The notes under the pieces were generated by a model. That model was not told where the DNA came from. It did not search any database and saw only the letters and a program-made list of their open reading frames with translations. A stretch of DNA of 64,000 bases, from the NCBI RefSeq assembly GCF_910596095.1, contig NC_056543.1, positions 24,810,542 through 24,874,541 of the forward strand. Reading direction: 5' to 3'. This document shows, in pieces, positions 36,265-64,000 of this stretch. Position numbers and translations under genes: made by a program. Source of the stretch: Thunnus maccoyii. Taxonomy: Eukaryota > Chordata > Actinopteri > Scombriformes > Scombridae. Every line of letters starts with the position of its first letter. Position 1 is the stretch's first letter.

Positions 36265-38439
36265 GAACTGTGGAAATGTTTGCTTCCTGACCCACAGGCA
36301 CAACTAGGAGTAGCTTTTGTGATTGCCGATGAGATAAAAGATGATTTTATTTATTTAAGAGCTGAGGATTACTCATGCTTGCATGTGTAGTTTACTGGTG
36401 TGTGTCTGCCCGGCTAAACATAGGATTTGGGGATTTCTTGATTGAAGATTGACAATTACATGGCAGCAGTTATTTTCCTATGAGCTATTTATATATAATA
36501 ATCTATCATATTTATAGATTAACTATTATAAAAGAGAAATCAGAACTAGTCATCTGATACATGTCTGTTTCTTGGTTAATGAACAGCTATGTCAAGCTGT
36601 ATGGTTGCAGGATTCATTTTCACAGTTAATAGAAGCGGGTGTTTATTTCAAACTGTGGATTAATGTGGAGATGTGATGAAAATGTATATGTTAACTTCGA
36701 CCTTTTGTTGCATAATACTCCATTTTAATTAATATTATGTAATATTCATAGCATTACATAGTCTGTTACAAGTGTTTTTTTTTGTATTTTCATTCACATG
36801 TATGTGTAAAGTTAAGGGAGATAAGACCTCCTGTAGTTATTTCTGAAACAGATGTCCTTTCTGCTCATTTTTATTCATTCAACTCTAAATGTAGATTCTG
36901 CAGCTTTTCCATAAATGCATTAATCTTCTTATCGCATACGGCTCAGTGTCGTCGCTGCTTGTGTATGCTACAACGTAATGGAGGGACTTTGTCATTGCTT
37001 TTGCCTCCTATGGATGGACTTTTTTTCCCCTTTATGGACATGATCTCTCTCTATACAGGGGGTGTGGTGGGTGTGATTGCCATATGTCAGGATGTGGATG
37101 GGGGAGGTAATAGTGTGAAAGCATTTCAGTTCTCTTTGGGATAAGAAAAGCTTTCAGGACGATATGCTGCACACAAATGAACTGTTATTTATTTGCAATA
37201 TGTCTTGTGTACTGCAAACATCAAATACAGTACACACTGATGTGCTTTGTGTAGCTGAAAAAGTCAAATAATATTCCTGTTCTAACACCAACCACTGGTC
37301 TGACAGCCAGTTATTAGACATAAAAGTCTGTCACATGATTTATTTTTCTAAATAAAAAAAAAATGCTGTTGAACTTTGACATGCCTGCTCGGTGACTCCT
37401 TTAAGCCTCAGTTGAGGAGTCGACCATTCAGCGATGAACACCAGTTAATCTGCACATTGGCCTGATGGCCCTTTAATGTGGGATTAGGCTGCAAATAAGA
37501 AAACTGGGGAGGCTGGATGCTGCAACTCATCCCTCTCATGCAGCTGTTTTAATTGTGGACCACTGCAGAAATGTAGTATATTCACAACATCTTTAATTTA
37601 TCTGGGCCAAAGTTGAAATGACAGTGTTGAGCCACTGTAGTAAGCTCACTATTTTACTCTCTCATTAGTGTAAATCTTACAGCTGCACTAGTAAAATCTG
37701 GTAACACTTTATTTTATGTCCTGTAATGTGCTAATAATTTCCTTGAAAGTTTCCATGAAAAGTCCTGTAATTTGATACTAATTATAGGGAAAATAGAGAC
37801 AATGTTATGAGACAGCTACCTGAGTTTAGTTAGTTGTTTTGAGTTTATAAGTTTTCATTTTCAGAGGCAATTACTGGAAAATCCAAGTAAGTATTCATTT
37901 ATTATTGGAAACGTTTTTTTTCTCCATATTTGTTTGACAAATGTGACATTCATGCATGTTCATTTAACCTGCTGCACATTGACTAAAAACTCTATATTAC
38001 ATTGTGCTTTTGGGGTACCTTAAGAATTTACAAATGAAATAGTCTGCCTCATAATCTGTCATGTCACATGTATATGTAACCAATATGAACATGTGATTTT
38101 GTCTCGTTTTGTCTCTCATTCTGTGAATAAGACATCAAGTCTGTAGCTCTGTGAGACTCCATTACTTACCAGAAAACGAGTTTATTCATTGAATCACGGA
38201 TGGTTCTGGAGTGGGTCCAGTTTTAAGGGGCTATAATACCCCTGTGACAAAAAGCAAGGACGTCCTAATGTGTGAAGGCGTTTTCTCCTGAAGCCAGGGC
38301 TTCCCCGTTTTTCAAACTAGCTATCATTGTCATTTTAATAAAAAGATAAAATTCATTTCTTGACCATTTAACAGCCACTGTTCACATCATATTATCAGCC
38401 TCGGTTTACTAGTTGTTTTTTGAGCAGCTGTATGACTTT

Positions 38440-38840
38440 AGCGCCGACTTGTCTGAAAACGAGAAATCTGTCAAACGGTGCCGCCGGTGCCTAGCAACGG
38501 TTGCTATGACAGAGTCGCGGGTTTAGTAAATAGTCAGTTACTTTATTCTGTGACGTAATCATGACGAGTGATCAACGTGTAGCCTAGTTACACTTTGATT
38601 TGTGACGTGTAGTCATAGATATGTGACGTGGTCATGAGCAGTGATCAACGTGTAGTCTCTCTTTGATCTCTGTAGTCTCACTTTGATCTCTGTAGTCACA
38701 CTTTGATCTCTGTAGTCACACTTTTATCTGTATCGTCACCCTTTGATTTGTGCTTTGATTCTTTGATCTAGTCACAGATAAAAGCTATGAAAGTGGAAAC
38801 ATTTATGTATATAGGGCACCAGAATATTCAAGACCAATAC
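38440..38840 (+). promoter_or_regulatory. Promoter of orphan gene copy 1
   Basis: In order: the palindrome TAGCAACGGTTGCTA (38492-38506), two half-sites of the RFX X-box type; several TGACGT words (CRE-like) at 38551-38630; a 20-bp tandem array with CTTTGATCTCTG cores (38653-38735, three intact and one altered copy), matching the TCF/LEF consensus; two more TTTGAT words; and TATATAG at 38808-38814. Motif assignments are inference. The positions, spacing and conservation in all three units are seen. Confidence 0.6.
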
Positions 38841-38992
38841 GATAAACATCGAAGATAATCAATCCTGATAGCTACAGTTAATAAGCATCGAAGGTAATCA
38901 AGCTTACAGTTTGATTACAGTAACAGAGCATCGAAGCTAATCGCGCTTACAGTCGGATTACAGTAACAGAGCATCGAAAACAAGAGAAGAAA
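38840..38992 (+). repeat. 43-bp leader repeat before gene copy 1
   Basis: The probable 5'UTR consists of imperfect 43-bp repeats around GATTACAGTAACAGAGCATC and CGAAGCTAATC. CATCGAA recurs four times. Copies 1 and 2 have one repeat more than copy 3. TAATC/GATTA words are OTX-like, but that may be chance. Confidence 0.7.
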
Positions 38993-41020
38993 ATGGCAGT
39001 CGTTACAGTTGATGATGTGCGCTCAGTGATCCATTCCTTTTTGGAGAAGATCACAGAGGAGCAATGGATACTGTTGAAGGAAGGAACTCCTGATGATGCC
39101 ACAATGTACCTGTTGGCAGAAATGATCACAGAATTCATCATATTCATTACAAATACAATATTGGCGAATCTACGGAGCAAAGATGCGGACGTCTGTAAGG
39201 AGGAGCTTCTCAATAGCCTGAACGAAACTCTCCATAAGAGTTTCGTTCAGGCTCTGGAGTTTACGGAGGAAATGCAGTCAGTCAGTTCAGAGAGCTTAAC
39301 AAAACTAATAGCAAAAGAGGTTGCTGAGAGCGTCAACTCGGCCCTCTCTGCTTCTACTGACTCTGAAAGTAGAGATTTTGTGGTTCCTCATGACAAAGTC
39401 GGTGGCTTTCGTGTCACACCATCCCGCAGACTAAACACAATGGTTGGTCATGCAAGCGCTGTGCTTCGTGACTTCATGACCAAAGTGAAAAGTCTGTGCC
39501 CACCTCAGCCACGTCAGTCAAGGTCATATAGGGCCACCGATGTAGAAAACACAGACAAAGAGGATATGGTACCACCAATGGAGTCTCCAGAGCATGAGGA
39601 TGCAGAAATGGAAGATCTGGAGACTTCAGATAAAGAAATGGAGGAGGATAAAGTAGAGAGGCCCGACACTGGTGACCGCCTAGAGTCACCAGTGAAAAGT
39701 GAAAGGCAGGACACACCGGAGAAGATGGCATCGGAAGACAGCTTTCTGGCTCAAACCAGTAAAGCTGTCCAAGAGATAATCAGACAAGAGCTTTACGAGT
39801 TAACAGAACCCGTACTACATACAGTGGAGGAGTCTGAATATGAACTCCTGCAATCTGATTTCTCTTTAGAGATTGAGGTTATAGGGGACGACATATCTCA
39901 GATTCTTACGGAAGAGGCAAAGAGTCTACAACATTCTGAAACTGAGAGTCCGAGAGAAGAAAATAATCTGAAGAGCAAGATCAAGACACTTTTTGCTAAG
40001 CTGTTTGCCAAATCATTGATTCATCGTATGGTGGCACAGCTGAAGTCCAAATACCATAAAATCTTCAAAGGTAAAGGCAGACACTCAGCGCAGTCCCTCA
40101 GGTCTAGTGTTGAGTCTCTGCTTCTGGATGAGTACGACATTACAGAGGGTGGAAATGAGGTTTCTGTGTTTCGGCAGTTAGAGATAATCTCCAGTGGGAA
40201 ACATCTGGTTTTCACAAAAGAACTCAGCGATCTTGTCTACAATCACATCAAAGATGGGATGGTGACGACCGAGATTGTCCCTGAGTCAGTGAGGAAGAAG
40301 TCCATAAGAAAGACTCTTAAAGAGCACTATGACGCCCTGTACAACGATGTAGGCAATAGAGTGAAGTGTTTTCTCAGCCTGATGAATTGGTGGCTTAAAA
40401 TGAAGGTTGGCAGCTACTGCAATAGGGTTGTACTTGCTCTTAAGAACACCAAGATATTCTCACGAATGCCCCCAACAGAAGTCACAGCAGAGGAGGATGC
40501 AACAAGGTCCGAGGAGGATGCAACAAGGTCCGAGGAGGATGCAACAAGGTCCGAGGAGGATGCAACAAGATCCAAGGAGGATGCAACAAGGTCCGAGGAG
40601 CGAGACACTGAATCTGAAGAGGATGCAGCGCTCAAGAAAAGGTACATAGCTGTTAGCGTGCTCGTTGAGAAGCTGGTGTATCGTGTCCTCACCAAAACAA
40701 AGAACACTATTATGAACGCAGAGGCCCTGACTCGCCACATCATCAAGAAGACGTGGGCGGAAGTTGAGACTCTAGATTTTAAGGTAACGGAAAAAACTAT
40801 AAAAAACATCGACAAGGCCATTTTCAAGGATTTGTGCAAGGTCTGGAAGAGTGCAGACATGGTGGTGATATTTATGAAATCAGGGGATCCGCTAATAGAA
40901 AAATACATAGCCGTGTCTTTTAAATCTCACCTGACGCTGAAAAAGCCCAGCACCATCCACCGTTTCTTCTCCTGTGTACGCAGGGTTTTGGCCGAGCCTT
41001 TTCTGAGAATTTTTGTATAA
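38993..41020 (+). CDS. Orphan intronless gene, copy 1 (675 aa)
   Basis: I do not recognise this protein. The ATG is in good context (GAAAATGG) and the frame is open for 675 codons to TAA. No signal peptide or clear membrane span is seen. Predicted layout: helical N terminus (about 1-120, VRSVIHSFLEKITEEQWILL); a basic patch with VTPSRRLNTM (about 140); an acidic Glu/Asp linker (about 180-245); a second helical block (about 250-490) with Lys-rich LKSKIKTLFAKLFAKSLIHR and the pair of Trp in SLMNWWLKMKVGSY; five EEDATRS heptads (500-534); and a conserved C-terminal block from KKRYIAVSVLVEKLVYRVLT to the end FLRIFV. The three copies differ at only a few residues. An intracellular scaffold or structural protein is possible, but no function is assigned. 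Confidence 0.85.
   Translation: MAVVTVDDVRSVIHSFLEKITEEQWILLKEGTPDDATMYLLAEMITEFIIFITNTILANLRSKDADVCKEELLNSLNETLHKSFVQALEFTEEMQSVSSESLTKLIAKEVAESVNSALSASTDSESRDFVVPHDKVGGFRVTPSRRLNTMVGHASAVLRDFMTKVKSLCPPQPRQSRSYRATDVENTDKEDMVPPMESPEHEDAEMEDLETSDKEMEEDKVERPDTGDRLESPVKSERQDTPEKMASEDSFLAQTSKAVQEIIRQELYELTEPVLHTVEESEYELLQSDFSLEIEVIGDDISQILTEEAKSLQHSETESPREENNLKSKIKTLFAKLFAKSLIHRMVAQLKSKYHKIFKGKGRHSAQSLRSSVESLLLDEYDITEGGNEVSVFRQLEIISSGKHLVFTKELSDLVYNHIKDGMVTTEIVPESVRKKSIRKTLKEHYDALYNDVGNRVKCFLSLMNWWLKMKVGSYCNRVVLALKNTKIFSRMPPTEVTAEEDATRSEEDATRSEEDATRSEEDATRSKEDATRSEERDTESEEDAALKKRYIAVSVLVEKLVYRVLTKTKNTIMNAEALTRHIIKKTWAEVETLDFKVTEKTIKNIDKAIFKDLCKVWKSADMVVIFMKSGDPLIEKYIAVSFKSHLTLKKPSTIHRFFSCVRRVLAEPFLRIFV
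40490..40594 (+). repeat. Coding VNTR, 21 bp x 5
   Basis: Five tandem 21-bp units each encode EEDATRS (one reads KEDATRS), in frame in gene copy 1. The matching array has four units in copy 2 and one in copy 3, which accounts exactly for the differences in protein length. Confidence 0.97.
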
Positions 41021-41031
41021 TAACAACTGCC

Positions 41032-41087
41032 TTCATCTTGAAGGAAAAAAGAATAATGGAGGTTTCTCTTTTTTCCTTCAAGATGAA
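41032..41087 (+). repeat. Perfect 21-bp inverted repeat after the stop codon, unit 1
   Basis: Arms 41032-41052 and 41067-41087 are exact reverse complements around a 14-nt loop, starting 12 nt after the TAA. The arms are purine-rich on one side (GAAGGAAAAAAGA). The transcript would form a strong stem-loop. The same structure recurs at 42083-42138. Confidence 0.95.
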
Positions 41088-41104
41088 CGCAAGAAGTTAA
41101 GTCC

Positions 41105-41950
41105 CACCTCACATCTACCTATCTCCTCATTATCACGGACTCACATCTACCCACCTCCTCCTCCACTGGCCTCCATCCTACATTGTCACGGACTCACATC
41201 TACCCACCTCCTCCTCCACTGGCCTCCATCCTACATTATCACGGACTCACATCTACCAACCTCCTCCTCCACTGGCCACCATCCTACATTATCGCGGACT
41301 CACATCTACCCACCTCCTCCTCCACTGGCCTCCATCCTACATTATCACGGACTCACATCTACCCACCTCCTCCTCCACTGGCCTCCATCCTACATTATCA
41401 CAGACTCACATCTACCCACCTCCTCCTCCTCTGGCCTCCATCCTACATTATCACGGACTCACATCTACCCACCTCCTCCTCCACTGGCCTCCATCCTACA
41501 TTATCACGGACTCACATCTACCAACCTCCTCCTCCACTGGCCACCGTCCTACATTATCACAGACTCACATCTACCCACCTCCTCCTCCACTGGCCTCCAT
41601 CCTACATTATCACAGACTCACATCTACCCACCTCCTCCTCCACTGGCCTCCATCCTACATTATCACAGACTCACATCTACCCACCTCCTCCTCCACTGGC
41701 CACCATCCTACATTATCACAGACTCACATCTACCCACCTCCTCCTCCACTGGCCTCCATCCTACATTATCACAGACTCACATCTACCCACCTCCTCTTCC
41801 ACTGGCCTCCATCCTACATTATCACAGACTCACATCTACCAACCTCCTCCTCCACTGGCCTCCGTCCTACATTATTACTGATTCCCATCTACCCACCTCC
41901 TCCTCCACTGGCTTCTGTCCTACATTATTACGGACTCACATCTACCTATA
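41105..41950 (+). repeat. 53-bp minisatellite, unit 1 (about 15 copies)
   Basis: The unit begins GGACTCACATCTACCCACCT and continues with CTCCTCCACTGGCCTCCATC, then CTACATTATCAC. The pyrimidine-rich plus strand has no in-frame stop in long stretches of every frame. Since 53 is not a multiple of three, the open frames encode a 53-residue period spanning three units. Likely noncoding 3' flank. Confidence 0.95.
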
Positions 41951-41955
41951 ACCTA

Positions 41956-42138
41956 GAGGTTTCTGTGTTTCAGCAGTTAGAGATAATTTCCAGTGGGAAA
42001 CATCTGGTTTTCACAAAAGAACTCAGCGATCTTATCTACAGTCACATCAGAGATGGGATGGTGACGACCGACAACTGTAGCCTTCATCTTGAAGGAAAAA
42101 AGAATAATGGAGGTTTCTCTTTTTTCCTTCAAGATGAA
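41956..42138 (+). pseudogene. 116-bp relict of the orphan gene plus second hairpin, unit 1
   Basis: 41956-42071 is a near copy of the coding segment 40157-40272 (EVSVFRQLEIISSGKHLVFT region). It is joined abruptly to a copy of the post-stop sequence with the 21-bp inverted repeat (42083-42103 and 42118-42138). It looks like the leftover of a second gene copy whose middle and 3' coding parts were lost. Confidence 0.9.
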
Positions 42139-42632: not shown

Positions 42633-43616
42633 CAAAAATGCAATAAAAATCATTCAATAAAAAATTAAAATTTCACATCTGCTTTCAATTATTCTTTTAT
42701 CTTTTGCAGTCAAAACATCACTGGTTCAATTAAAGACAATCATACTTTTACAGTTGAATTCTGTGTAAAGGCATACAAATACAAGAAATATATATTCACT
42801 GTTATTTATTGTGTACATCTATTGTTGTAAAGATTTCAAACTATGTAAGCTTCCGTTGTGCCTGGATTGTGCTTCTTCATGAGTACCATCTTCAGAGGTA
42901 AAATCAAACACTCAGAGTTCTGTTGCAAATAACTAGATTTAAAAATAAATAAATATTGGTACAATTAAGAAGAAACGGTAATGTTGTCTTGTAGCACTCA
43001 CACTATTTCAACACATTTGTTGTTGCTGATTAAAAACAGACATGCTGTTCCTTGATTGTGTTATATGTTTCAAATTTGAGGAAAACTCTTAGTTGAGCGT
43101 TCAATGTGTGTTGAGGCAACAGACAGGAAGAATGACACATGACAACTGCACAATTAATTTAAAGTATTTTATTGATATAAGCCATTAAGCTTCCATTAAG
43201 CAGAGGAAAGACTTGGATTGAAGCATTGTTTGAGCTGTTATTGCACTGTCAGCAAATATGAATTAATCTTTTACTAATGTAAGAGTAATTATATTTGACC
43301 TTCTATTGAATACTTTACACAAAATATCACAAAATTGTATAAAATTGCTTTCTACATTTATGCCCGAATGCTTTTTAGGCATGTCTTGAAGCATTTGTTT
43401 CATGTTGTTGAAAAATGCTCACTTTCAACCATGTCTTCCAAGGCGTACTGTACCTATCTGCAGACGGCTTCAAATGTTTTCACCAAACATTTAAGCAGGA
43501 TGATGTTTGGGCACGTTGAGCTCTATAGTACAGCTGTGAGGACAAATCCTGTGAAAACAAATCAGTATTAGATAGTTGGTTTCGTTAGGTTCCAGTTTCA
43601 ACAATCATTTAATCTG
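42633..43616 (+). other. Unit flank with candidate poly(A) signals, no gene seen
   Basis: Two AATAAA motifs at 42642 and 42656 are the first good poly(A) signals after gene copy 1, so a transcript might run through the minisatellites to here. The remaining sequence has no supported gene. Confidence 0.4.
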
Positions 43617-47505: not shown

Positions 47506-48102
47506 GCCCTTTAATGTGGAATTAGGCTGCAAATAAGAAAACTGGGGAGGCTGGATGCTGCAACTCATCCCTCTCATGCAGCTGTTTTAATTGTGGACCA
47601 CTGCAGAAATGTAGTATGTTCACAACATCTTTAATTTATCTGGGCCAAAGTTGAAATGACAGTGTTGAGCCACTGTAGTAAGCTCACTATTTTACTCTCT
47701 CATTAGTGTAAATCTTACAGCTGCACTAGTAAAATCTAGTAACACTTTATTTTATGTCCTGTAATGTGCTAATAATTTCCTTGAAAGTTTCCATGAAAAG
47801 TCCTGTAATTTGATACTAATTATAGGGAAAATAGAGACAATGTTATGAGACAGCTACCTGAGTTTAGTTAGTTGTTTTGAGTTTATAAGTTTTCATTTTC
47901 AGAGGCAATTACTGGAAAATCCAAGTAAGTATTCATTTATTATTGGAAACGTTTTTTTTCCATATTTGTTTGACAAATGTGACATTCATGCATGTTCATT
48001 TAACCTGCTGCACACTGACTAAAAACTCTATATTACATTGTGCTTCCTAAGAATTTACAAATGAAATAGTCTGCCTCATAATCTGTCATGTCACATGTAT
48101 AT

Positions 48103-50754
48103 GGGTGGTTGACGTGACGCTCCATTTTTGTGTTCTTGGTGACAAATGTAAATAATAATATATAATATTTCATTAAAATCTCTGTTTTTTATACAGTATA
48201 ATCGTCCAGAACTAATACATCTGTAATTAATGAGCATTACAATTCAAATATGTAAATATTTTGTTTTAAACATGACATTTGTCCACTGGCGTGACTGTCC
48301 GGAGTAGCATTGCTCATCTCAAAACTACTGTATTTAAATTAATAATAAGTCAAAATACATTAAAATACTTGAATATATATTATAGTAGTGTTAACTTACA
48401 GAAACTAAGGTTATAAGTCTTAAGGTCACCATTTAGAATAATTATGAAACGTTACATTTTGTCCGCAAAACTGGTGTCCACCTGGTGTGAAGCCACTCTG
48501 TAGATATAAAACAGGCATTAATTTGGGTACCCTATTACTGAGAGGGGTCCTTCTTCATCCAGGAAGTACAGTAGACATCACTGGAGCAGATGCACTGCAC
48601 ACAAGGTGAGTTCTGTCTCAAATCTTTTCATAATTTTGCTATTTCTGTGCATTGTTAGAAATGGGATCCATTGTGCAGTCCTTTTGTGTGACGTAATTTA
48701 AGCACTGATCTGAAAATTTTCATCAATTTATATTGATTGACTATTGAAAATAATGTAAACCTTTGGTGTGACAGCACTGTCCTATAGTGTGACATGAACT
48801 GAACGTCACACTGGTGGACATGGCTGTCACACCAGTGGATGTAGGTTCTATGAAGGAGTACAAACCCATCACTCTCTCTCTCCTAACCACTCAATAGTCA
48901 CTCAATACAGGAACAAGGCTAACTGTTACCTTTTAAGCAGTGTACCCTACACATGGGGGCTAAAGCGAATAATGTGGAACTATTCAGAGAGAGCTCATGG
49001 GAAAGGTGCTCCTGATGGAGTTGGGGGAGCAGTGAAACGAATGGCAGACAACCACATCCATGGGGGGCAAGACCTTAAAAGCCCAAAGGATGTCTATGAG
49101 TTCCTAGTCCAAAAAGAGGTCACAAACATAAGATTCAAGTGGATCGATGAGGCAGATATCCAGGTGTTTGACGAGATGTTGCCACCGTCTGTCCCAAAAG
49201 TACCCGGCATATTAAACACGCACCAAATACTTTCCTTCTCTGTCGGAGAGATCTTCTATAGGGCACTCAGCTGTTTCTGCCGGTTCCCAGAGATGTGCCA
49301 CTGCTTCTCTCCAAGCAAGATGAGGCCAGACAAATCAAAAGATTTGGAGGAACCACTCACCTCTGAAGTCCAAGCGACCCAGCCTGAGAATCCCAATAGT
49401 GGAGAGGAAGCTGAGGAAGAGCTTGACGACAAGTACACTGTAGGGAAATTCGTCATTGTCTGCTATGACCAGAAGCCATTTGTGGGCCAGATCACACAAC
49501 TAAATGCTGAGCATATTGAGGTCAATTGCATGGTGCAAATTTGTGGGAAAAACATCTTCAAATGGCCTGCTAAGCGAGACTGCATTATGTACAGCAAGGA
49601 CGAACTTGTCAGTGTCATCTCTGAGCCAGAGCCCCACCAGCGTGGAGCCCAACTCACCAAATATGACTGGCTGCTGTTCAATGAGGTGTGAAAGGAGGAG
49701 GATGAGTCCTTAAACACTACAGCTTTTTTTTTATTTTGTTTGTATTTCAAGCTGTACTCTTGTGCTGGGTTGTTTAATGAATTTTACCCAAACAGTAGTT
49801 TTTAGGTCAGTTCCAGTGGTTATGAATTGTGACAAGTATGGCTATTTGAAAAATGATTTTACTTGAGCACTAAAAATGGGACTGAATTTAATACAGAGAA
49901 CTCTAATTTTAATTCTTTATCCTGTCTAGTTTTGACTTGAACAAAAATGTAATGAATTTTAAGATAAATTTGAAAAAGAAAAGTAATAATAAGCCAGGAC
50001 AATTTTGTTTACATGTTCATGTTGTGTTGCTAAATGTTACTAGTCTGGCTATCTTAATTGTACAAAAAACATTTGAACTTCAGGTTATAACTTTATTTTA
50101 ATGAATTGTTAATGATTTTGAAGGTAATGAATTTTAAAATAAATTTGAACAGGAAAAAATAAATGTGACTTTGTAACAAAACATGGGCATAAGGTATTTA
50201 TTGTCCAATGGTGTGACGGAATGTCCTGTGGTGTGACAAACTGAATTATGAGTGGAAAAGGCATTTTAATGCACAAATTCATGTAAAAAGTGTTGAATAG
50301 CATAATAATGATATCATCACTATGCACATATAAGGATGAATTGAAGCTTCATTAGGTTTTATACTAATTATAATGAATATAACCCAACCGTTTGGGTGAA
50401 GTCCCTATGTGGACATCTTATAGTAGGGTAATGACATGATTGCGAATTTTTATTGGTTACTTTTGATGTGGAAATATAATTAGAACAAATTGATAAGGAT
50501 TATGCATATTTGTCTTATCTGGCAAACAATCTCTGAATTAAATATTAATATTAAAAATGTTGTCCCACCGGTGGACAATTTTTAGGAGTACCACACAAAA
50601 AAGTGAAAAAAATCTAAAATAAATGAGGAATTGGTAATGAACACAATCAATTTTGAGTTACTTACATATAAAGCAATACAATTATGTGTCATTTGACATA
50701 AATTTTAAAAATATATTTTTTTCCACTTTGGATTTGAGTTCACGTCAACCACCC
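48103..50754 (+). mobile_element. DNA transposon with 15-bp TIRs and ATAT duplication
   Basis: Exact ends GGGTGGTTGACGTGA and TCACGTCAACCACCC, flanked by ATAT on both sides; unit 1 shows the empty site. Both subterminal regions carry repeated GTCCANTGGTGTGAC-like words on both strands: near 48281, 48476, 48762-48835, 50201-50238 and 50560. These are probable transposase-binding sites. It holds one open transposase-like exon on the plus strand and nothing recognisable in its left 0.8 kb, so it may be internally deleted. The 4-bp duplication would fit Sola-type elements, but the superfamily is not established. Confidence 0.85.
48972..49691 (+). CDS. Transposase-like protein, 3'-terminal exon (239 codons)
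   Basis: Open frame from ATG to TGA inside the 2.65-kb transposon. The frame extends upstream without stops to an acceptor TTTTAAGCAG at 48931-48940, adding PYTWGLKRI, so this is probably the last exon of a longer transposase. The N-terminal part, MWNYSERAHGKGAPDGVGGA VKRMADN, carries the HGKG-x-DG-GG-KR signature that I recall from uncharacterised transposase-like proteins of fish and cnidarians. A Glu-rich linker (about 120-150) leads to a beta-rich C-terminal module (VGKFVIVCYDQKPFVGQITQ, ending WPAKRD) resembling a small SH3/Tudor-like fold. The start methionine is not established. The uninterrupted frame suggests the element is young. Confidence 0.65.
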   Translation: MWNYSERAHGKGAPDGVGGAVKRMADNHIHGGQDLKSPKDVYEFLVQKEVTNIRFKWIDEADIQVFDEMLPPSVPKVPGILNTHQILSFSVGEIFYRALSCFCRFPEMCHCFSPSKMRPDKSKDLEEPLTSEVQATQPENPNSGEEAEEELDDKYTVGKFVIVCYDQKPFVGQITQLNAEHIEVNCMVQICGKNIFKWPAKRDCIMYSKDELVSVISEPEPHQRGAQLTKYDWLLFNEV

Positions 50755-51119: not shown

Positions 51120-51570
51120 TAGCGCCGACTTGTCTGAAAACGAGAAATCTGTCAAACGGTGCCGCCGGTGCCTAGCAACGGTTGCTATGACAGAGTCGCG
51201 GGTTTTGAAAATAGTCAGTTACTTTATTCTGTGACGTAATCATGACGAGTGATCAACGTGTAGCCTAGTTACACTTTGATTTGTGACGTGTAGTCATAGA
51301 TATGTGACGTGGTCATGAGCAGTGATCAACGTGTAGTCTCTCTTTGATCTCTGTAGTCTCACTTTGATCTCTGTAGTCACACTTTGATCTCTGTAGTCAC
51401 ACTTTGATCTCTGTAGTCTCTCTTTGATCTCTGTAGTCACACTTTGATCTCTGTAGTCACACTTTTATCTGTATCGTCACCCTTTGATTTGTGCTTTGAT
51501 TCTTTGATCTAGTCACAGATAAAAGCTATGAAAGTGGAAACATTTATGTATATAGGGCACCAGAATATTC
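51120..51570 (+). promoter_or_regulatory. Promoter of orphan gene copy 2
   Basis: Same order as copy 1: TAGCAACGGTTGCTA at 51173-51187, TGACGT words, a 20-bp CTTTGATC array expanded to six intact and one altered copy (51333-51475), and TATATAG at 51549-51555. Between TATA box and ATG it keeps about 60 bp (including CAAATCGAGTTATTCTGACA) that copies 1 and 3 lack. Confidence 0.6.
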
Positions 51571-51794: not shown

Positions 51795-53801
51795 ATGGCA
51801 GTCGTTACAGTTGATGATGTGCGCTCAGTGATCCATTCCTTTTTGGAGAAGATCACAGAGGAGCAATGGATACTGTTGAAGGAAGGAACTCCTGATGATG
51901 CCACAATGTACCTGTTGGCAGAAATGATCACAGAATTCATCATATCCATTACAAATACAATATTGGCGAATCTACGGAGCAAAGATGCGGACGTCTGTAA
52001 GGAGGAGCTTCTCAATAGCCTGAACGAAACTCTCCATCAGAGTTTCGTTCAGGCTCTGGAGTTTACGGAGGAAATGCAGTCAGTCAGTTCAGAGAGCTTA
52101 ACAAAACTAATAGCAAAAGAGGTTGCTGAGAGCGTCAACTCAGCCCTCTCTGCTTCTACTGACTCTGAAAGTAGAGATTTTGTGGTTCCTCATGACAAAG
52201 TCGGTGGCTTTCGTGTCACACCATCCCGCAGACTGAACACAATGGTTGGTCATGCAAGCGCTGTGCTTCGTGACTTCATGACCAAAGTGAAAAGTCTGTG
52301 CCCACCTCAGCCACGTCAGTCAAGGTCATATAGGGCCACCGATGTAGAAAACACAGACAAAGAGGATATGGTACCACCAATGGAGTCTCCAGAGCATGAG
52401 GATGCAGAAATAGAAGATCTGGAGACTTCAGATAAAGAAATGGAGGAGGATAAAGTAGAGAGGCCCGACACTGGTGACCGCCTAGAGTCACCAGTGAAAA
52501 GTGAAAGGCAGGACACACCGGAGAAGATGGCATCGGAAGACAGCTTTCTGGCTCAAACCAGTAAAGCTGTCCAAGAGATAATCAGACAAGAGCTTTACGA
52601 GTTAACAGAACCTGTACTACATACAGTGGAGGAGTCTGAATATGAACTCCTGCAATCTGATTTCTCTTTAGAGATTGAGGTTATAGGGGACGACATATCT
52701 CAGATTCTTACGGAAGAGGCAAAGAGTCTACAACATTCTGAAACTGAGAGTCCGAGAGAAGAAAATAATCTGAAGAGCAAGATCAAGACACTTTTTGCTA
52801 AGCTGTTTGCCAAATCATTGATTCATCGTATGGTGGCACAGCTGAAGTCCAAATACCATAAAATCTTCAAAGGTAAAGGCAGACACTCAGCGCAGTCCCT
52901 CAGGTCTAGTGTTGAGTCTCTGCTTCTGGATGAGTACGACATTACAGAGGGTGGAAATGAGGTTTCTGTGTTTCGGCAGTTAGAGATAATCTCCAGTGGG
53001 AAACATCTGGTTTTCACAAAAGAACTCAGCGATCTTGTCTACAATCACATCAAAGATGGGATGGTGACGACCGAGATTGTCCCTGAGTCAGTGAGGAAGA
53101 AGTCCATAAGAAAGACTCTTAAAGAGCACTATGACGCCCTGTACAACGATGTAGGCAATAGAGTGAAGTGTTTTCTCAGCCTGATGAATTGGTGGCTTAA
53201 AATGAAGGTTGGCAGCTACTGCAATAGGGTTGTACTTGCTCTTAAGAACACCAAGATATTCTCACGAATGCCCCCAACAGAAGTCACAGCAGAGGAGGAT
53301 GCAACAAGGTCCGAGGAGGATGCAACAAGGTCCGAGGAGGATGCAACAAGGTCCGAGGAGGATGCAACAAGGTCCGAGGAGCGAGACACTGAATCTGAAG
53401 AGGATGCAGCGCTCAAGAAAAGGTACATAGCTGTTAGCGTGCTCGTTGAGAAGCTGGTGTATCGTGTCCTCACCAAAACAAAGAACACTATTATGAACGC
53501 AGAGGCCCTGACTCGCCACATCATCAAGAAGACGTGGGCGGAAGTTGAGACTCTAGATTTTAAGGTAACGGAAAAAACTATAAAAAACATCGACAAGGCC
53601 ATTTTCAAGGATTTGTGCAAGGTCTGGAAGAGTGCAGACATGGTGGTGATATTAATGAAATCAGGGGATCCGCTAATAGAAAAATACATAGCCGTGTCTT
53701 TTAAATCTCACCTGACGCTGAAAAAGCCCAGCACCATCCACCGTTTCTTCTCCTGTGTACGCAGGGTTTTGGCCGAGCCTTTTCTGAGAATTTTTGTATA
53801 A
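51795..53801 (+). CDS. Orphan intronless gene, copy 2 (668 aa)
   Basis: Same protein as copy 1 apart from one fewer EEDATRS heptad and a handful of substitutions (for example FIIF to FIIS near residue 50 and HKS to HQS near 82). The start ATG, the stop context and the inverted repeat within the coding region are conserved. The frame is intact over its full length, which argues that the protein is made from more than one copy, or that the duplication is too recent for decay. Upstream lies the 2.65-kb transposon, about 1 kb from the ATG and beyond the promoter motifs. Confidence 0.85.
   Translation: MAVVTVDDVRSVIHSFLEKITEEQWILLKEGTPDDATMYLLAEMITEFIISITNTILANLRSKDADVCKEELLNSLNETLHQSFVQALEFTEEMQSVSSESLTKLIAKEVAESVNSALSASTDSESRDFVVPHDKVGGFRVTPSRRLNTMVGHASAVLRDFMTKVKSLCPPQPRQSRSYRATDVENTDKEDMVPPMESPEHEDAEIEDLETSDKEMEEDKVERPDTGDRLESPVKSERQDTPEKMASEDSFLAQTSKAVQEIIRQELYELTEPVLHTVEESEYELLQSDFSLEIEVIGDDISQILTEEAKSLQHSETESPREENNLKSKIKTLFAKLFAKSLIHRMVAQLKSKYHKIFKGKGRHSAQSLRSSVESLLLDEYDITEGGNEVSVFRQLEIISSGKHLVFTKELSDLVYNHIKDGMVTTEIVPESVRKKSIRKTLKEHYDALYNDVGNRVKCFLSLMNWWLKMKVGSYCNRVVLALKNTKIFSRMPPTEVTAEEDATRSEEDATRSEEDATRSEEDATRSEERDTESEEDAALKKRYIAVSVLVEKLVYRVLTKTKNTIMNAEALTRHIIKKTWAEVETLDFKVTEKTIKNIDKAIFKDLCKVWKSADMVVILMKSGDPLIEKYIAVSFKSHLTLKKPSTIHRFFSCVRRVLAEPFLRIFV
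53292..53375 (+). repeat. Coding VNTR, 21 bp x 4
   Basis: Four in-frame EEDATRS units at the position that holds five in copy 1. Confidence 0.97.
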
Positions 53802-53812: not shown

Positions 53813-53868
53813 TTCATCTTGAAGGAAAAAAGAATAATGGAGGTTTCTCTTTTTTCCTTCAAGATGAA
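53813..53868 (+). repeat. 21-bp inverted repeat after the stop codon, unit 2
   Basis: Same perfect stem and 14-nt loop as after gene copy 1, again 12 nt beyond the TAA. Confidence 0.95.
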
Positions 53869-53885: not shown

Positions 53886-54465
53886 CACCTCACATCTACC
53901 TATCTCCTCATTATCACGGACTCACATCTACCCACCTCCTCCTCCACTGGCCTCCATCCTACATTATCACGGACTCACATCTACCCACCTCCTCCTCCAC
54001 TGGCCTCCATCCTACATTATCACGGACTCACATCTACCCACCTCCTCCTCCACTGGCCTCCATCCTACATTATCACGGACTCACATCTACCCACCTCCTC
54101 CTCCACTGGCCTCCGTCCTACATTATCACAGACTCACATCTACCCACCTCCTCCTCCACTGGCCTCCGTCCTACATTATCACAGACTCACATCTACCCAC
54201 CTCCTCCTCCACTGGCCTCCATCCTACATTATCACAGACTCACATCTACCCACCTCCTCCTCCACTGGCCACCATCCTACATTATCACAGACTCACATCT
54301 ACCCACCTCCTCCTCCACTGGCCACCATCCTACATTATCACAGACTCACATCTACCCACCTCCTCCTCCACTGGCTTCTGTCCTACATTATTACTGACTC
54401 ACATCTACCCACCTCCTCCTCCACTGGCTTCTGTCCTACATTATTACGGACTCACATCTACCTAT
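53886..54465 (+). repeat. 53-bp minisatellite, unit 2 (about 10 copies)
   Basis: Same unit as at 41105-41950 but about five copies shorter. Variant positions (CATCC/CGTCC, CACGG/CACAG) run in blocks, as expected from local expansion. Confidence 0.95.
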
Positions 54466-54471: not shown

Positions 54472-54655
54472 GAGGTTTCTGTGTTTCGGCAGTTAGAGAT
54501 AATTTCCAGTGGGAAACATCTGGTTTTCACAAAAGAACTCAGCGATCTTATCTACAGTCACATCAGAGATGGGATGGTGACGACCGACAACTGTAGCCTT
54601 CATCTTGAAGGAAAAAAGAATAATGGAGGTTTCTTTTTTCCTTCAAGATGAACGC
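54472..54655 (+). pseudogene. 116-bp gene relict plus hairpin, unit 2
   Basis: 54472-54587 repeats the coding fragment, followed by the hairpin sequence with a 2-bp shorter right side. Equivalent to 41956-42138, so the relict predates the unit duplication. Confidence 0.9.
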
Positions 54656-55148: not shown

Positions 55149-56130
55149 AAAATGCAATAAAAATCATTCAATAAAAAATTAAAATTTCACATCTGCTTTC
55201 AATTATTCTTTTATCTTTTGCAGTCAAAACATCACTGGTTCAATTAAAGACAATCATACTTTTACAGTTGAATTCTGTGTAAAGGCTTATAAATACAAGA
55301 AATATATATTCACTGTTATTTATTGTGTACATCTATTGTTGTAAAGATTTCAAACTATGTAAGCTTCCGTTGTGCCTGGATTGTGCTTCTTCATGAGTAC
55401 CATCTTCAGAGGTAAAATCAAACACTCAGAGTTCTGTTGCAAATAACTAGATTTAAAAATAAATAAATATTGGTACAATTAAGAAGAAACGGTAATGTTG
55501 TCTTGTAGCACTCACACTATGTCAACACATTTGTTGTTGCTGATTAATAACAGACATGCTGTTCCTTGATTGTGTTATATGTTTCAAATTTGAGGAAAAC
55601 TCTTAGTTGAGCGTTCAATGTGTGTTGAGGCAACAGACAGGAAGAATGACACATGACAACTGCACAATTAATTTAAAGTATTTTATTGATATAAGCCATT
55701 AAGCTTCCATTAAGCAGAGGAAAGACTTGGATTGAAGCATTGTTTGAGCTGTTATTGCACTGTCAGCAAATATGAATTAATCTTTTACTAATGTAAGAGT
55801 AATTATATTTGACCTTCTATTGAATACTTTACACAAAATATCACAAAATTGTATAAAATTGCTTTCTACATTTATGCCCGAATGCTTTTTAGGCATGTCT
55901 TGAAGCATTTGTTTCATGTTGTTGAAAAATGCTCACTTTCAACCATGTCTTCCAAGGCGTACTGTACCTATCTGCAGACGGCTTCAAATGTTTTCCCCAA
56001 ACATTTAAGCAGGATGATGTTTGGGCATGTTGAGCTCTATAGTACAGCTGTGAGGACAAATCCTGTGAAAACAAATCAGTATTAGATGGTTGGTTTCGTT
56101 AGTTTCCAGTTTCAACAATCATTTAATCTG

Positions 56131-58267: not shown

Positions 58268-59910
58268 TGTTGGGACGGGCAGTAGTGCGTGTGGTTATTA
58301 GCAATAATTCATAATTATCAGATAATTATGAATTATGAAAATAAGATATTGTTAACCTTAATCAATAATTCGGGCACCAACTGTTGGATCTATGAGGAAC
58401 ACAGTTGATTATTTGCAATAATTATCAAGGATAATAAACCAATTATGACAATTAATAGAATTATTAATATGAATTAACAAATACGGGGCACCACCCGGAA
58501 ACCGGGACCAATAACCAAACAAGGTAGTCTCATAAATGGGAGTTCACCTAGAATGTTAATATCAGAGAGATAAACATTCAAGGATGAACAAAGAAGGGTT
58601 GAATTCGAGCTCTGACTCCTTCAATCAGCCACTTTTCACAATATTACACACAATAATGACAGAAGAACTTCTCTTTAAAGATATAACAGTGTTTATTAAA
58701 CTTAGCAAAATTAACAAAGTTAACAAATGCTTCATTCAATAAACAACTATCCTAAGATCTAATCCTACCAAACAAAACACAAACAGCTATGTACAGGGTT
58801 GGACACATGCAGGGGAATGCGTGTGTGTGTGTGTGCGTGCGTGCGTGCGTGTGACACAAGATGGCAACGGGGCCTGACGTGATGACATCGCCGGACGTGA
58901 CTATGGGAGGAAGTCACGTCGCGCGAGAACCGGATGGCAGAAATGTGGCGGTGTCTTGGTTAGACAGAAGCAAGACGGCGCCGCCTGGCGGAAGAGAAGC
59001 TTTGTCCACAGACAGCGTGTGTACGGACGGCAGTCTGTAACGTACGTTGTCTGGTTTCTGATCGACAAAGCAACTTACTTTCTCTCTCACGATGGCACAA
59101 ACAGCAGTAGTCCCGAGCGGGACAAACACAAAACAGTCTAGCGTGGTGAACACAACTAAACAGGCAGCAAACTTAAAATACTCCTAAGAGTAAAGCAGGA
59201 AAAAATGGACTCGGCGGTCCGTAAACAACACAACAAACAATAGCAAAAGCTAAGAGCTAAATGCTAAGCAACAGCAACTGATGCTGATAAGAACACACAA
59301 TTAACACTGCCTCTGCCCAGACTTATGCCTATTACTTGGTCGCTTCAGAAAGCGAGCAGGGTGTGTGTGTAATCCGTCTTTATGTCCGGCTTTGTCCTGG
59401 GCTCGGATGCAGACGGTGGCCGTTCTCGCACGGTCGGCGAAAAACACGGCAGCTGGCTCTCGGCGGCGTGGCGGAGAGAACAGCAGAGTCGACTCGTCTC
59501 GAGGAAATTGAGGACGCTGGTTGCAGCAGCGGTCTCTCTCGGATCCGGGAATGTGTTCGGGTGAACACGGGCGAAGTCTCGTCTCGTCCGGCGAGGGGAG
59601 TCTTCGATGAGGGGAAAACACGTGCGTGGGGTACCCACTTTAGTCAGCTGACTCACAGAGGAACCGGAGTTACCCCTTGCTCAGTGACATGGGAAAGGCG
59701 TGTGCGTCGGGGCACGTTCAGTTTTTAAAGGGGTGGTGATGTCATGGCTGCGTCATCAGGACGCTCCGCTGTGCAGGAGCGTCTCCGCCAATGAGACTGT
59801 ATGTTGACTGCTCCCTGCTGAGGTGTGAAAATCGCAAAGCATCCTTGGAAATGGAGTTTGCAATGGACTCCCATTGTCTAAGCAGCATTTTTGGCGCTAT
59901 TCCTTTGTCT
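58268..59910. mobile_element. LTR-like element, incomplete copy, unit 3
   Basis: Begins TGTTGG at exactly the same host position as the element in unit 2 and is nearly identical to it over most of its length; it is incomplete. The shared site shows that the insertion predates the split of units 2 and 3. Confidence 0.7.
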
Positions 59911-60289
59911 GATGATGTGATTTTGTGTCGTTTTGTCTCTCATTCTGTGAATAAGACATCAAGTCTGTAGCTCTATGAGACTCCATTACTTACCAGAAAA
60001 CGAGTTTATTCATTGAATCACGGATGGTTCTGGAGTGGGTCCAGTTTTAAGGGGCTATAATACCCCTGTGACAAAAAGCAAGGACGTCCTAATGTGTGAA
60101 GGCGTTTTCTCCTGAAGCCAGGGCTTCCCCGTTTTTCAAACTAGCTATCATTGTCATTTTAATAAAAAGATCAAATTCATTTCTTGACCATTTAACAGCC
60201 ACTGTTCACATCATATTATCAGCCTCGGTTTACTAGTTGTTTTTTGAGCAGCTGTATGACTTTAGCGCCGACTTGTCTGAAAACGAGAA

Positions 60290-60730
60290 ATCTGTCAAAC
60301 GGTGCCGCCGGTGCCTAGCAACGGTTGCTATGACAGAGTCGCGGGTTTTGAAAATAGTCAGTTACTTTATTCTGTGACGTAATCATGACGAGTGATCAAC
60401 GTGTAGCCTAGTTACACTTTGATTTGTGACGTGTAGTCATAGATATGTGACGTGGTCATGAGCAGTGATCAACGTGTAGTCTCTCTTTGATCTCTGTAGT
60501 CTCACTTTGATCTCTGTAGTCACACTTTGATCTCTGTAGTCTCTCTTTGATCTCTGTAGTCTCACTTTGATCTCTGTAGTCACACTTTGATCTCTGTAGT
60601 CACACTTTGATCTCTGTAGTCACACTTTTATCTGTATTGTCACCCTTTAATTTGTGCTTTGATTCTTTGATCTAGTCACAGATAAAAGCTATGAAAGTGG
60701 AAACATTTATGTATATAGGGCACCAGAATA
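60290..60730 (+). promoter_or_regulatory. Promoter of orphan gene copy 3
   Basis: TAGCAACGGTTGCTA at 60316-60330, TGACGT words, the longest 20-bp array (seven intact CTTTGATC cores and one altered, about 60477-60640), and TATATAG at 60712-60718. The leader has one 43-bp repeat fewer than in copies 1 and 2. Confidence 0.6.
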
Positions 60731-60853
60731 TTCAAGACCAATACGATAAACATCGAAGATAATCAATCCTGATAGCTACAGTTAATAAGCATCGAAGGTA
60801 ATCGAGCTTACAGTTTGATTACAGTAACAGAGCATCGAAGACAAGAGAAGAAA

Positions 60854-62797
60854 ATGGCAGTCGTTACAGTTGATGATGTGCGCTCAGTGATCCATTCCTT
60901 TTTGGAGAAGATCACAGAGGAGCAATGGATACTGTTGAAGGAAGGAACTCCTGATGATGCCACAATGTACCTGTTGGCAGAAATGATCACAGAATTCATC
61001 ATATTCATTACAAATACAATATTGGCGAATCTACGGAGCAAAGATGCGGACGTCTGTAAGGAGGAGCTTCTCAATAGCCTGAACAAAACTCTCCATAAGA
61101 GTTTCGTTCAGGCTCTGGAGTTTACGGAGGAAATGCAGTCAGTCAGTTCAGAGAGCTTAACAAAACTAATAGCAAAAGAGGTTGCTGAGAGCGTCAACTC
61201 GGCCCTCTCTGCTTCTACTGACTCTGAAAGTAGAGATTTTGTGGTTCCTCATGACAAAGTCGGTGGCTTTCGTGTCACACCATCCCGCAGACTAAACACA
61301 ATGGTTGGTCATGCAAGCGATGTGCTTCGTGACTTCATGACCAAAGTGAAAAGTCTGTGCCCACCTCAGCCACGTCGGTCAAGGTCATATAGGGTCACCG
61401 ATGTAGAGAACACAGACAAAGAGGATATGGTACCACCAATGGAGTCTCCAGAGCATGAGGATGCAGAAATAGAAGATCTGGAGACTTCAGATGAAGAAAT
61501 GGAGGAGGATAAAGTAGAGAGGCCCGACACTGGTGACCGCCTAGAGTCACCAGTGAAAAGTGAAAGGCAGGACACACCGGAGAAGATGGCATCGGAAGAC
61601 AGCTTTCTGGCTCAAACCAGTAAAGCTGTCCAAGAGATAATCAGACAAGAGCTTTACGAGTTAACAGAACCTGTACTACATACAGTGGAGGAGTCTGAAT
61701 ATGAACTCCTGCAATCTGATTTCTCTTTAGAGATTGAGGTTATAGGGGACGACATATCTCAGATTCTTACGGAAGAGGCAAAGAGTCTACAACATTCTGA
61801 AACTGAGAGTCCGAGAGAAGAAAATAATCTGAAGAGCAAGATCAAGACACTTTTTGCTAAGCTGTTTGCCAAATCATTGATTCATCGTATGGTGGCACAG
61901 CTGAAGTCCAAATACCACAAAATCTTCAAAGGTAAAGGCAGACACTCAGCGCAGTCCCTCAGGTCTAGTGTTGAGTCTCTGCTTCTGGATGAGTACGACA
62001 TTACAGAGGGTGGAAATGAGGTTTCTGTGTTTCGGCAGTTAGAGATAATTTCCAGTGGGAAACATCTGGTTTTCACAAAAGAACTCAGCGATCTTATCTA
62101 CAATCACATCAAAGATGGGATGGTGACGACCGAGATTGTCCCTGAGTCAGTGAGGAAGAAGTCCATAAGAAAGACTCTTAAAGAGCACTATGACGCCCTG
62201 TACAACGATGTAGGCAATAGAGTGAAGTGTTTTCTCAGCCTGATGAATTGGTGGCTTAAAATGAAGGTTGGCAGCTACTGCAATAGGATTGTACTTGCTC
62301 TTATGAACACCAAGATATTCTCACGAATGCCGCTACCAGAAGTCACAGCAGAGGAGGATGCAACAAGGTCCGAGGAGCGAGACACTGAATCTGAAGAGGA
62401 TGCAGCGCTCAAGAAAAGGTACATAGCTGTTAGCGTGCTCGTTGAGAAGCTGGTGTATCGTGTCCTCACCAAAACAAAGAACACTATTATGAACGCAGAG
62501 GCCCTGACTCGCCACATCATCAAGAAGACGTGGGCGGAAGTTGAGACTCTAGATTTTAAGGTAACGGAAAAAACTATAAAAAACATCGACAAGGCCATTT
62601 TCAAGGATTTGTGCAAGGTCTGGAAGAGTGCAGACATGGTGGTGATATTAATGAAATCAGGGGATCCGCTAATAGAAAAATACATAGCCGTGTCTTTTAA
62701 ATCTCACCTGACGCTGAAAAAGCCCAGCACCATCCACCGTTTCTTCTCCTGTGTACGCAGGGTTTTGGCCGAGCCTTTTCTGAGAATTTTTGTATAA
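60854..62797 (+). CDS. Orphan intronless gene, copy 3 (647 aa)
   Basis: Intact third copy. The start is set at the ATG at 60854, which matches copies 1 and 2; the frame is also open a little upstream, but only without an ATG. It has a single EEDATRS heptad, followed like the others by EERDTESEEDAALKKRYIAV. Substitutions include NET to NKT near residue 78, SAV to SDV near 154 and PPTEV to PLPEV before the heptad. Two silent or conservative changes in the EIISSGKHLVFT region are shared with the relict fragments and not with copies 1 and 2, hinting at gene conversion. Function unknown. Confidence 0.85.
   Translation: MAVVTVDDVRSVIHSFLEKITEEQWILLKEGTPDDATMYLLAEMITEFIIFITNTILANLRSKDADVCKEELLNSLNKTLHKSFVQALEFTEEMQSVSSESLTKLIAKEVAESVNSALSASTDSESRDFVVPHDKVGGFRVTPSRRLNTMVGHASDVLRDFMTKVKSLCPPQPRRSRSYRVTDVENTDKEDMVPPMESPEHEDAEIEDLETSDEEMEEDKVERPDTGDRLESPVKSERQDTPEKMASEDSFLAQTSKAVQEIIRQELYELTEPVLHTVEESEYELLQSDFSLEIEVIGDDISQILTEEAKSLQHSETESPREENNLKSKIKTLFAKLFAKSLIHRMVAQLKSKYHKIFKGKGRHSAQSLRSSVESLLLDEYDITEGGNEVSVFRQLEIISSGKHLVFTKELSDLIYNHIKDGMVTTEIVPESVRKKSIRKTLKEHYDALYNDVGNRVKCFLSLMNWWLKMKVGSYCNRIVLALMNTKIFSRMPLPEVTAEEDATRSEERDTESEEDAALKKRYIAVSVLVEKLVYRVLTKTKNTIMNAEALTRHIIKKTWAEVETLDFKVTEKTIKNIDKAIFKDLCKVWKSADMVVILMKSGDPLIEKYIAVSFKSHLTLKKPSTIHRFFSCVRRVLAEPFLRIFV
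62351..62371 (+). repeat. Coding VNTR, single unit in copy 3
   Basis: Only one EEDATRS unit, where copies 1 and 2 have five and four. Confidence 0.95.
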
Positions 62798-62808
62798 TAA
62801 CAACTGCC

Positions 62809-62864
62809 TTCATCTTGAAGGAAAAAAGAATAATGGAGGTTTCTCTTTTTTCCTTCAAGATGAA
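62809..62864 (+). repeat. 21-bp inverted repeat after the stop codon, unit 3
   Basis: Same perfect stem-loop at the same distance from the TAA as in the other two copies. Confidence 0.95.
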
Positions 62865-62881
62865 CGCAAGAAGTTAAGTCC

Positions 62882-63670
62882 CACCTCACATCTACCTATC
62901 TCCTCATTATTACGGATTCACATCTACCCACCTCCTCCTCCACTGGCCACCATCCTACATTATCACGGACTCACATCTACCAACCTCCTCCTCCACTGGC
63001 CTCCATCCTACATTATCACGGACTCACATCTACCAACCTCCTCCTCCACTGGCCTCCATCCTACATTATCACGGACTCACATCTACCAACCTCCTCCTCC
63101 ACTGGCCTCCATCCTACATTATCACGGACTCACATCTACCAACCTCCTCCTCCACTGGCCTCCATCCTACATTATCACAGACTCACATCTACCAACCTCC
63201 TCCTCCACTGGCCACCATCCTACATTATCACAGACTCACATCTACCAACCTCCTCCTCCACTGGCCTCCATCCTACATTATCACAGACTCACATCTACCC
63301 ACCTCCTCCTCCACTGGCCACCATCCTACATTATCACAGACTCACATCTACCCACCTCCTCCTCCACTGGCCTCCATCCTACATTATCACAGACTCACAT
63401 CTACCCACCTCCTCCTCCACTGGCCACCATCCTACATTATCACAGACTCACATCTACCCACCTCCTCCTACACTGGCCTCCATCCTACATTATCACGGAC
63501 TCACATCTACCCACCTCCTCCTCCACTGGCCTCCATCCTACATTATCACAGACTCACATCTACCCACCTCCTCCTCCACTGGCCTCCATCCTACATTATC
63601 ACAGACTCCCATCTACCCACCTCCTCCTCCACTGGCTTCTGTCCTACATTATTACGGACTCACATCTACC
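62882..63670 (+). repeat. 53-bp minisatellite, unit 3 (about 14 copies)
   Basis: Same repeat. Many units here read CTACCAACCT where unit 2 has CTACCCACCT, showing a distinct amplification history. Confidence 0.95.
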
Positions 63671-63679
63671 TATAACCTA

Positions 63680-63862
63680 GAGGTTTCTGTGTTTCAGCAG
63701 TTAGAGATAATTTCCAGTGGGAAACATCTGGTTTTCACAAAAGAACTCAGCGATCTTATCTACAGTCACATCAGAGATGGGATGGTGACGACCGACAACT
63801 GTAGCCTTCATCTTGAAGGAAAAAAGAATAATGGAGGTTTCTCTTTTTTCCTTCAAGATGAA
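63680..63862 (+). pseudogene. 116-bp gene relict plus hairpin, unit 3
   Basis: Third copy of the coding fragment (63680-63795) and its hairpin. The short minisatellite after it is cut by the window end. Confidence 0.9.
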
Positions 63863-64000
63863 CGCAAGAAGCTAAGTCCCACCTCACATCTACCTATCTC
63901 CTCATTATTACGGATTCACATCTACCTATCTCCTCATTATTACGGATTCACATCTACCTATCTCCTCATTATTACGGATTCACATCTACCCACCTCCTCC

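Follow-up and report, generated by a model that had tools for sequence, protein, structure and literature searches.

Replication-dependent histone genes are intronless and duplicated and carry a stem-loop shortly after the stop codon, while the transferrin-receptor IREs are repeated 3′UTR stem-loops in one mRNA. Many testis genes are intronless, multicopy and fast-evolving. RFX2 regulates spermiogenesis in the mouse, CREM-tau has a late role in male germ cells, and the gene sets of the two are largely non-overlapping (PMC4498915, in excerpt). The hpRNA loci of the Drosophila testis tie hairpins to fast-evolving multicopy genes (PMC10317233; PMC10292708, both in excerpt).

The gene family described here shares something with each of these. 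It is intronless and duplicated and has a stem-loop soon after the stop, as histone genes do, but its stem is far longer, poly(A) signals lie downstream, and no histone domain scored above the Pfam cut-off in the family proteins. As in the transferrin-receptor mRNA, one stem-loop is repeated several times after the stop codon and ahead of the poly(A) signal, yet stem size, sequence and number (up to 56) differ. The promoters of subfamilies A and B resemble, by motif only, those of RFX2/CREM spermiogenic genes (PMC4498915, in excerpt) in having X-box-like and CRE-like sites; unlike in those genes, the promoter island misses the published X-box consensus in 5 of 13 A/B promoters (those of A and C12), and the C17 and C13 members read are without an X-box. 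Compared with the Drosophila loci (PMC10317233; PMC10292708, in excerpt), the hairpins here are likewise tied to fast-evolving multicopy genes, but they are 21 bp long, sit in the gene's own 3′ flank, and have no complementarity to the coding regions tested. Among the literature matches listed, no title names such a family or 3′UTR hairpin arrays.

The window, by which we mean the whole 64,000-nt stretch analysed (G000:C11:24810542-24874541, within a 782-Mb genome), holds three units. An earlier note had reported three intact reading frames of 675, 668 and 647 codons in direct repeats, encoding nearly the same protein; all three are present, their proteins are 98–99% identical, and the units also have about 1 kb of upstream sequence and their downstream arrays in common.

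38993..41020, + strand, ORF A1, 675 aa, intronless, with paralogues found
40490..40600, + strand, in-frame 21-bp (7-codon) acidic repeat of A1, 5.3 copies
41124..41946, + strand, 53-bp minisatellite 3′ of A1, 15.5 copies
41956..42071, + strand, copy of an internal ORF fragment (96–97% DNA identity), before hairpin 2 of A1
51795..53801, + strand, ORF A2, 668 aa
53292..53381, + strand, in-frame 21-bp repeat of A2, 4.3 copies (shorter still in A3)
53905..54462, + strand, 53-bp minisatellite 3′ of A2, 10.5 copies
54472-54587, + strand, copy of the internal ORF fragment, before hairpin 2 of A2
60854..62797, + strand, ORF A3, 647 aa
62901..63670, + strand, 53-bp minisatellite 3′ of A3, 14.5 copies
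63680-63795, + strand, copy of the internal ORF fragment, before hairpin 2 of A3

The unstable repeats that had been described at several levels are indeed there: 20-bp and 43-bp repeats upstream, the 21-bp repeat in the ORF, and 53-bp and 32-bp repeats downstream. The "heptad" of the earlier description is a 7-residue acidic repeat, EEDATRS. The expected continuation of the array beyond the window is borne out only for the third unit's tail (1,224 bp) and not for a fourth copy, none being listed on C11 by a whole-genome DNA search (7 matches) or a protein search (48 matches). The 116-bp ORF-internal piece directly before the second hairpin in all three units is a trace of an old partial duplication.

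A, B and their relatives are a real, fast-evolving intronless gene family. We found at least 18 intact intronless members on eight contigs (written C5, C7 and so on, with genes as C5a, C5b), together with another open frame and a number of dead copies; the count is a lower bound, the genome searches scoring only the best candidates. Paralogues across the genome rule out a local-only triplet: the three tandem copies stand as claimed, within a family that is dispersed genome-wide in several subfamilies. Subfamily B comprises intact full-length relatives of A at 37–40% identity on C5 (three), C7, C8 (three), C12 (two) and C19. More distant intact members lie on C17 (four, of 868–888 aa in the three read) and C13 (one, 546 aa), a 694-codon open frame on C17 is a still more distant relative, and broken relatives occur on C4, C8, C13, C17, C19 and C23 among others. 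A tree grouped the C11 triplet with full support, its deeper order being unsure owing to long branches.

Profile searches of Pfam, NCBIfam and PDB found no relative above cut-off. The PDB search returned two chance matches only (E 0.15 and 0.19), and NCBIfam a single match, to C12b, far under its cut-off (17.2 vs 90 bits, E 0.004). The family is one without a curated profile or a solved relative in the libraries searched. AlphaFold models of the three window proteins were all-helical with mean pLDDT 36 and pTM 0.22, too poor for fold comparison; on that poor model the proteins are probably mostly helical, as had been supposed. The C-terminal 18-residue window has the protein's highest helical hydrophobic moment in 12 of 17 members, and ranks 4th in C8a and 6th or 7th in A, while for C13 the tail window used missed the motif. 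Internal domain duplication was rejected by hhalign of four segments (best E 0.07, probability under 1%).

A dN/dS below 1, which the earlier note had looked to as support, was found when A1 was compared with two B genes, dS being near 1.4–1.5: 0.37 against C5b (dS 1.48) and 0.40 against C12a (dS 1.40; NG86, as throughout), so the family frames are under selection. The description of a fast-changing, unnamed, intronless multigene family is borne out, with these values between diverged paralogues and no transposon or viral match. Within the A triplet the ratio is 0.38–0.69, from 3–6 synonymous and 4–12 replacement differences. The three C5 copies differ by 0 or 1 synonymous and 4–5 replacement changes, giving ratios of 1.2, 1.5 or undefined from numbers too few to judge; remaining pairs within B and within C17 range over 0.30–0.86. 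When six B pairs were pooled, the N-terminal segment and segment 381–486 were most constrained (0.42 each) and two linkers least (1.17 and 0.87).

Shared upstream flank extends about 1 kb among A copies and, in pieces, to 1.3–2.4 kb among B copies. Judging by these flanks, the copies arose through duplication of DNA that included promoter and 3′ flank rather than through retroposition; the processed-copy reading was rejected, since the copies have homologous upstream flank. Part of the shared B upstream block looks like a repeat element, and also occurs as a separate inverted copy. At the C7 locus (L062), the −700 to −1300 upstream block is present in inverted form about 3.2–3.9 kb upstream of the gene, probably as a repeat element.

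The promoters of A and B genes have in common an upstream island with GCCTAGCAACGGTTGC. The TATA box that had been reported before each A ORF is also in place, as TATATAGGG, though not at the same place in most B genes.

38489..38504, + strand, 16-mer GCCTAGCAACGGTTGC overlapping the RFX X-box-like site, A1
38551..38558, + strand, CRE-like TGACGTAA, A1
38808..38816, + strand, TATA-like TATATAGGG, A1
51170..51185, + strand, 16-mer GCCTAGCAACGGTTGC, A2
51232..51239, + strand, CRE-like TGACGTAA, A2
51549..51557, + strand, TATA-like TATATAGGG, A2
60313..60328, + strand, 16-mer GCCTAGCAACGGTTGC, A3
60375..60382, + strand, CRE-like TGACGTAA, A3
60712..60720, + strand, TATA-like TATATAGGG, A3

Genome-wide the 16-mer, which overlaps an RFX X-box-like site, occurs 12 times: 11 of these sites are at family genes and the last is on C3. 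The C3 site (G000:C3:22177134-22177149) has no family match in the 3 kb around it. An X-box-like site with at most one mismatch to an X-box consensus is present in 13/13 A/B promoters, against 0.1–0.33 expected per promoter, and in none of the four C17/C13 promoters read. The restricted consensus GYTRYY N1-3 RRHRAC (PMC2375033, in excerpt) is fitted exactly at the island in 8 of the 13 (C5 three, C7, C19, C8 three; 0.07–0.17 expected). A1–A3 fit it only elsewhere and on the opposite strand, and C12a, C12b and the four C17/C13 promoters have no fit anywhere; according to the same source, an X-box by itself is not predictive of RFX control. In 12/13 A/B genes, for the patterns tried, a CRE-like TGACATCA or TGACGTAA lies about 45–75 bp beyond the X-box-like site, the exception being C8a. 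Since three C17 promoters carry TGACATCA as well, this motif is not special to A/B. Taken with the roles of RFX2 and CREM, the A/B motifs point to spermatids or ciliated cells as the best guess, and only a guess, for where the family is probably expressed.

The hairpin, mentioned in passing in the earlier note, is the most unusual feature of these genes: among the matches listed it occurs at family loci only, in up to 56 copies. The stem is TTCATCTTGAAGG(A/G)AAAAAG(A/T), 21 bp around a loop of about 12–14 nt; past a two-pyrimidine mismatch, two G-C pairs lengthen it further. The post-stop hairpin claimed for A1, A2 and A3 is there, with a perfect 21-bp stem (fold z about −7), and a second lies 0.8–1.06 kb past each A stop, behind the internal ORF fragment copy.

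41032..41087, + strand, hairpin 1 of A1, 21-bp stem, 14-nt loop
42083..42138, + strand, hairpin 2 of A1
53813..53868, + strand, hairpin 1 of A2
54599..54652, + strand, hairpin 2 of A2, 2 nt shorter
62809..62864, + strand, hairpin 1 of A3
63807..63862, + strand, hairpin 2 of A3

Exact 13-nt arms 16–44 nt apart were found at 38 sites in 782 Mb, all at family genes (C5, 5; C7, 6; C8 at 6.46 Mb, 8; C8 at 23.97 Mb, 5 + 8; C11, 6), and a reversed control gave 0. BLAST of the 71-nt unit yielded 189 matches, those listed falling at the exact-arm loci, at C19, at pseudogenes on C4, C19 and C23, and at one C7 site, which is a remnant with family 3′ flank and no coding match. From the fetched loci, allowing up to 4 mismatches per arm, we extracted 97 units, 51 of them distinct: 56 after C8a (over 4.7 kb), 14 after C8c, 7 after C7, 6 on C11, 5 on C5, 5 after C8b, 1 after C19, 2 at the C4 pseudogene and 1 at the C19 pseudogene. 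Of the 13 A/B genes, 11 are followed by the hairpin, with copy numbers from 1 to 56, which would be a natural dose series among paralogues for relating stem-loop number to mRNA fate. The intact C12a and C12b have none in 1.48 kb downstream, and the C17/C13 members none in the 0.5–0.7 kb downstream read. Rfam 15 returned nothing at gathering threshold for window positions 37300-64000, the best score being 31.9 bits vs 80 and the matches being to miRNAs only; a known structured RNA family was rejected on these scores. The C5 genes (L011, L012, L014) have a second, smaller inverted repeat past the stop, CAGTCCTGCC...GGCAGGACTG, of which C7 has a less perfect relative past its own stop.

Arms of A are identical to the commonest B form at 39 of 42 positions, and C19 at 37 of 42, against 45–51% identity at four-fold sites, in a segment chosen after the fact; the stem-conservation P values are post hoc. 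Nine locus consensuses show compensatory differences at two pairs (pair 9 in C19, pair 24 in A vs B): the pair that closes the stem reads A-U in A and U-A in B, and in C19 a C-G pair is replaced by G-C. A G-U wobble at pair 17 is kept in 44 of 51 distinct units. All 21 pairs are intact in only 36/94 units at intact genes (14/56 in C8a), which tells against strong constraint; next to 0/3 at pseudogenes, the numbers are too small to decide. Mispairs in distinct units are A-C in 33 cases vs G-U outside pair 17 in 19, and because A-C outnumber G-U there is no unit-by-unit sign of sense-strand RNA selection; it may be enough for a 3′UTR to have one good copy, or else the arrays may be subject to drift.

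In 10 of the 11 genes that carry hairpins, AATAAA or ATTAAA first appears only after the end of the last complete unit, which places the hairpins in the putative 3′UTR. Distances past the stop, with the two signals located in the window, are as follows.

A1, last unit ends at 1121 nt, first poly(A) signal at 1621 nt (AATAAA, 42642..42647, + strand)
A2, 854 nt and 1354 nt (AATAAA, 55156-55161)
A3, 1068 nt and 1573 nt
C5a, 1022 nt and 1479 nt
C5b, 881 nt and 1338 nt
C5c, 676 nt and 1133 nt
C7, 914 nt and 1404 nt
C8b, 411 nt and 438 nt
C8c, 1166 nt and 1193 nt
C8a, 4684 nt and 4815 nt

The 4.7-kb array of C8a is free of AATAAA and ATTAAA, its first signal coming 131 nt past the array; C19 has no poly(A) signal in the 1.08 kb read.

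The reading that we tentatively prefer, with confidence somewhat short of even, is of a fast-evolving family with a private 3′UTR hairpin for RNA-level control. The dispersed intronless genes would encode hydrophilic proteins that are probably helical and have acidic linkers; the majority would end in an amphipathic basic helix, perhaps a membrane- or partner-binding tail, and new copies would arise by DNA duplication carrying promoter, ORF and 3′ flank as one. Transcription of A and B is probably RFX-driven through the X-box-like site, of which there are often two, and a CRE-binding factor may contribute; such a drive would resemble that of spermatid or ciliated-cell genes. The predicted transcript would run through a 3′UTR with one to dozens of the private 21-bp hairpins and then the poly(A) signal, and the hairpin would most likely be bound by a double-stranded-RNA-binding protein setting the timing of translation or mRNA stability. 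Such a cis-acting element with its binding factor is favoured over both small-RNA production and a functionless minisatellite. Speaking for this reading are the intact paralogues, the dN/dS values between A1 and B genes, the location and conservation of the hairpin, its place ahead of the first poly(A) signal and the common promoter motifs. Weighing against it are C12a and C12b without a hairpin, the lack of one in the sequence read after C17/C13 members, C19 without a poly(A) signal in its 1.08 kb, the low share of fully paired units, the missing sense-strand bias, the five A/B islands off the published consensus, the X-box-free C17/C13 promoters with TGACATCA in those of C17, and the TATA box that most B genes do not share. 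If germline-specific expression is true, the family would be a further example of fast-changing coding sequence linked to a conserved RNA tag, and would be relevant to the question whether tags of this kind originate by selection or by template switching. A broader version, which we consider unlikely, treats the family as a self-contained gene-plus-RNA module, in which the shared hairpin would let one trans-acting factor control most A/B members together. That factor could be a double-stranded-RNA-binding protein, or the hairpins themselves could be cut into small RNAs that play this part; the protein family would perhaps be germline, and array length (1 to 56) would either tune dosage as it evolves or record an arms race.

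Among the alternatives to RNA-level control, the hairpins may be mutational by-products, a functionless quasi-palindromic minisatellite that spreads by unequal exchange and whose pairing is maintained through template switching or gene conversion. We think this somewhat unlikely. In its favour, array units vary freely, as the 14 perfect units of 56 in C8a show, mispairs lack an RNA-sense bias, the window loci are rich in other minisatellites, and template switching is able both to create and to mend hairpins (PMC8794818, in excerpt). It fits poorly with arm conservation between A and B in excess of four-fold sites, and with the persistence of G-U at pair 17, which template switching would be expected to turn to Watson-Crick. 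The loops of A and B differ, which argues against recent whole-unit conversion, and every unit found, among the matches listed, is at a family gene, pseudogene or remnant. Dicer-like processing into 21-nt small RNAs, by which the family would carry its own silencing or autoregulatory RNA, is in our judgement distinctly improbable. The 21-bp stem, short loop and arrays of up to 56 suit it, and hpRNAs of the Drosophila testis that restrain selfish genes offer a comparable precedent (PMC10317233; PMC10292708, in excerpt). A 21-nt arm has 166 genome sites when one mismatch is allowed, and since those among the matches listed (about 100) are all family or remnant loci, the targets of any arm product would be chiefly the 3′ flanks of the family itself. 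Complementarity of the arms to coding regions of seven family members was no better than that of shuffles, however, and the idea of arms aimed at family coding regions was rejected for these members. The stem is, moreover, shorter than typical Drosha substrates, and the Rfam miRNA matches are far below gathering scores.

Movement of ORF and hairpin as a mobile element by a transposase, with a protein derived from a transposon or virus, would account for dispersal over many chromosomes with shared flanks and for the hairpin beside the ORF, but we regard it as very improbable. The earlier note had named a strong match to a transposon-encoded protein as what would tell against a gene family; there was no transposon match in Pfam, the Pfam and NCBIfam searches, in which a transposase, integrase, RT, capsid or other mobile-element profile was sought, had only matches below cut-off, and neither PDB nor the viral contigs held a relative, so a transposon or virus origin of the protein was rejected on the Pfam and viral-contig results. 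Upstream homology stops at about −1.4, −1.6 or −2.4 kb depending on the pair, with no common edge, the hairpins lie in variable numbers inside the 3′ flank, and dN/dS is below 1 between subfamilies.

Some further features of the window were noted. A 609-bp direct repeat (97.5%), at 37468-38076 and 47506-48103, flanks the first gene unit and may mark an edge of the duplication. A 239-codon ORF at 48972-49691, inside the longer first repeat unit, has no Pfam match. The LRR ORF at 35581-36264 (Pfam LRR_8) is the basis of the putative "next to nyx" label. At 22379-22951 an open frame with Helicase_C (Pfam) is probably a helicase-gene exon with adjoining intron.
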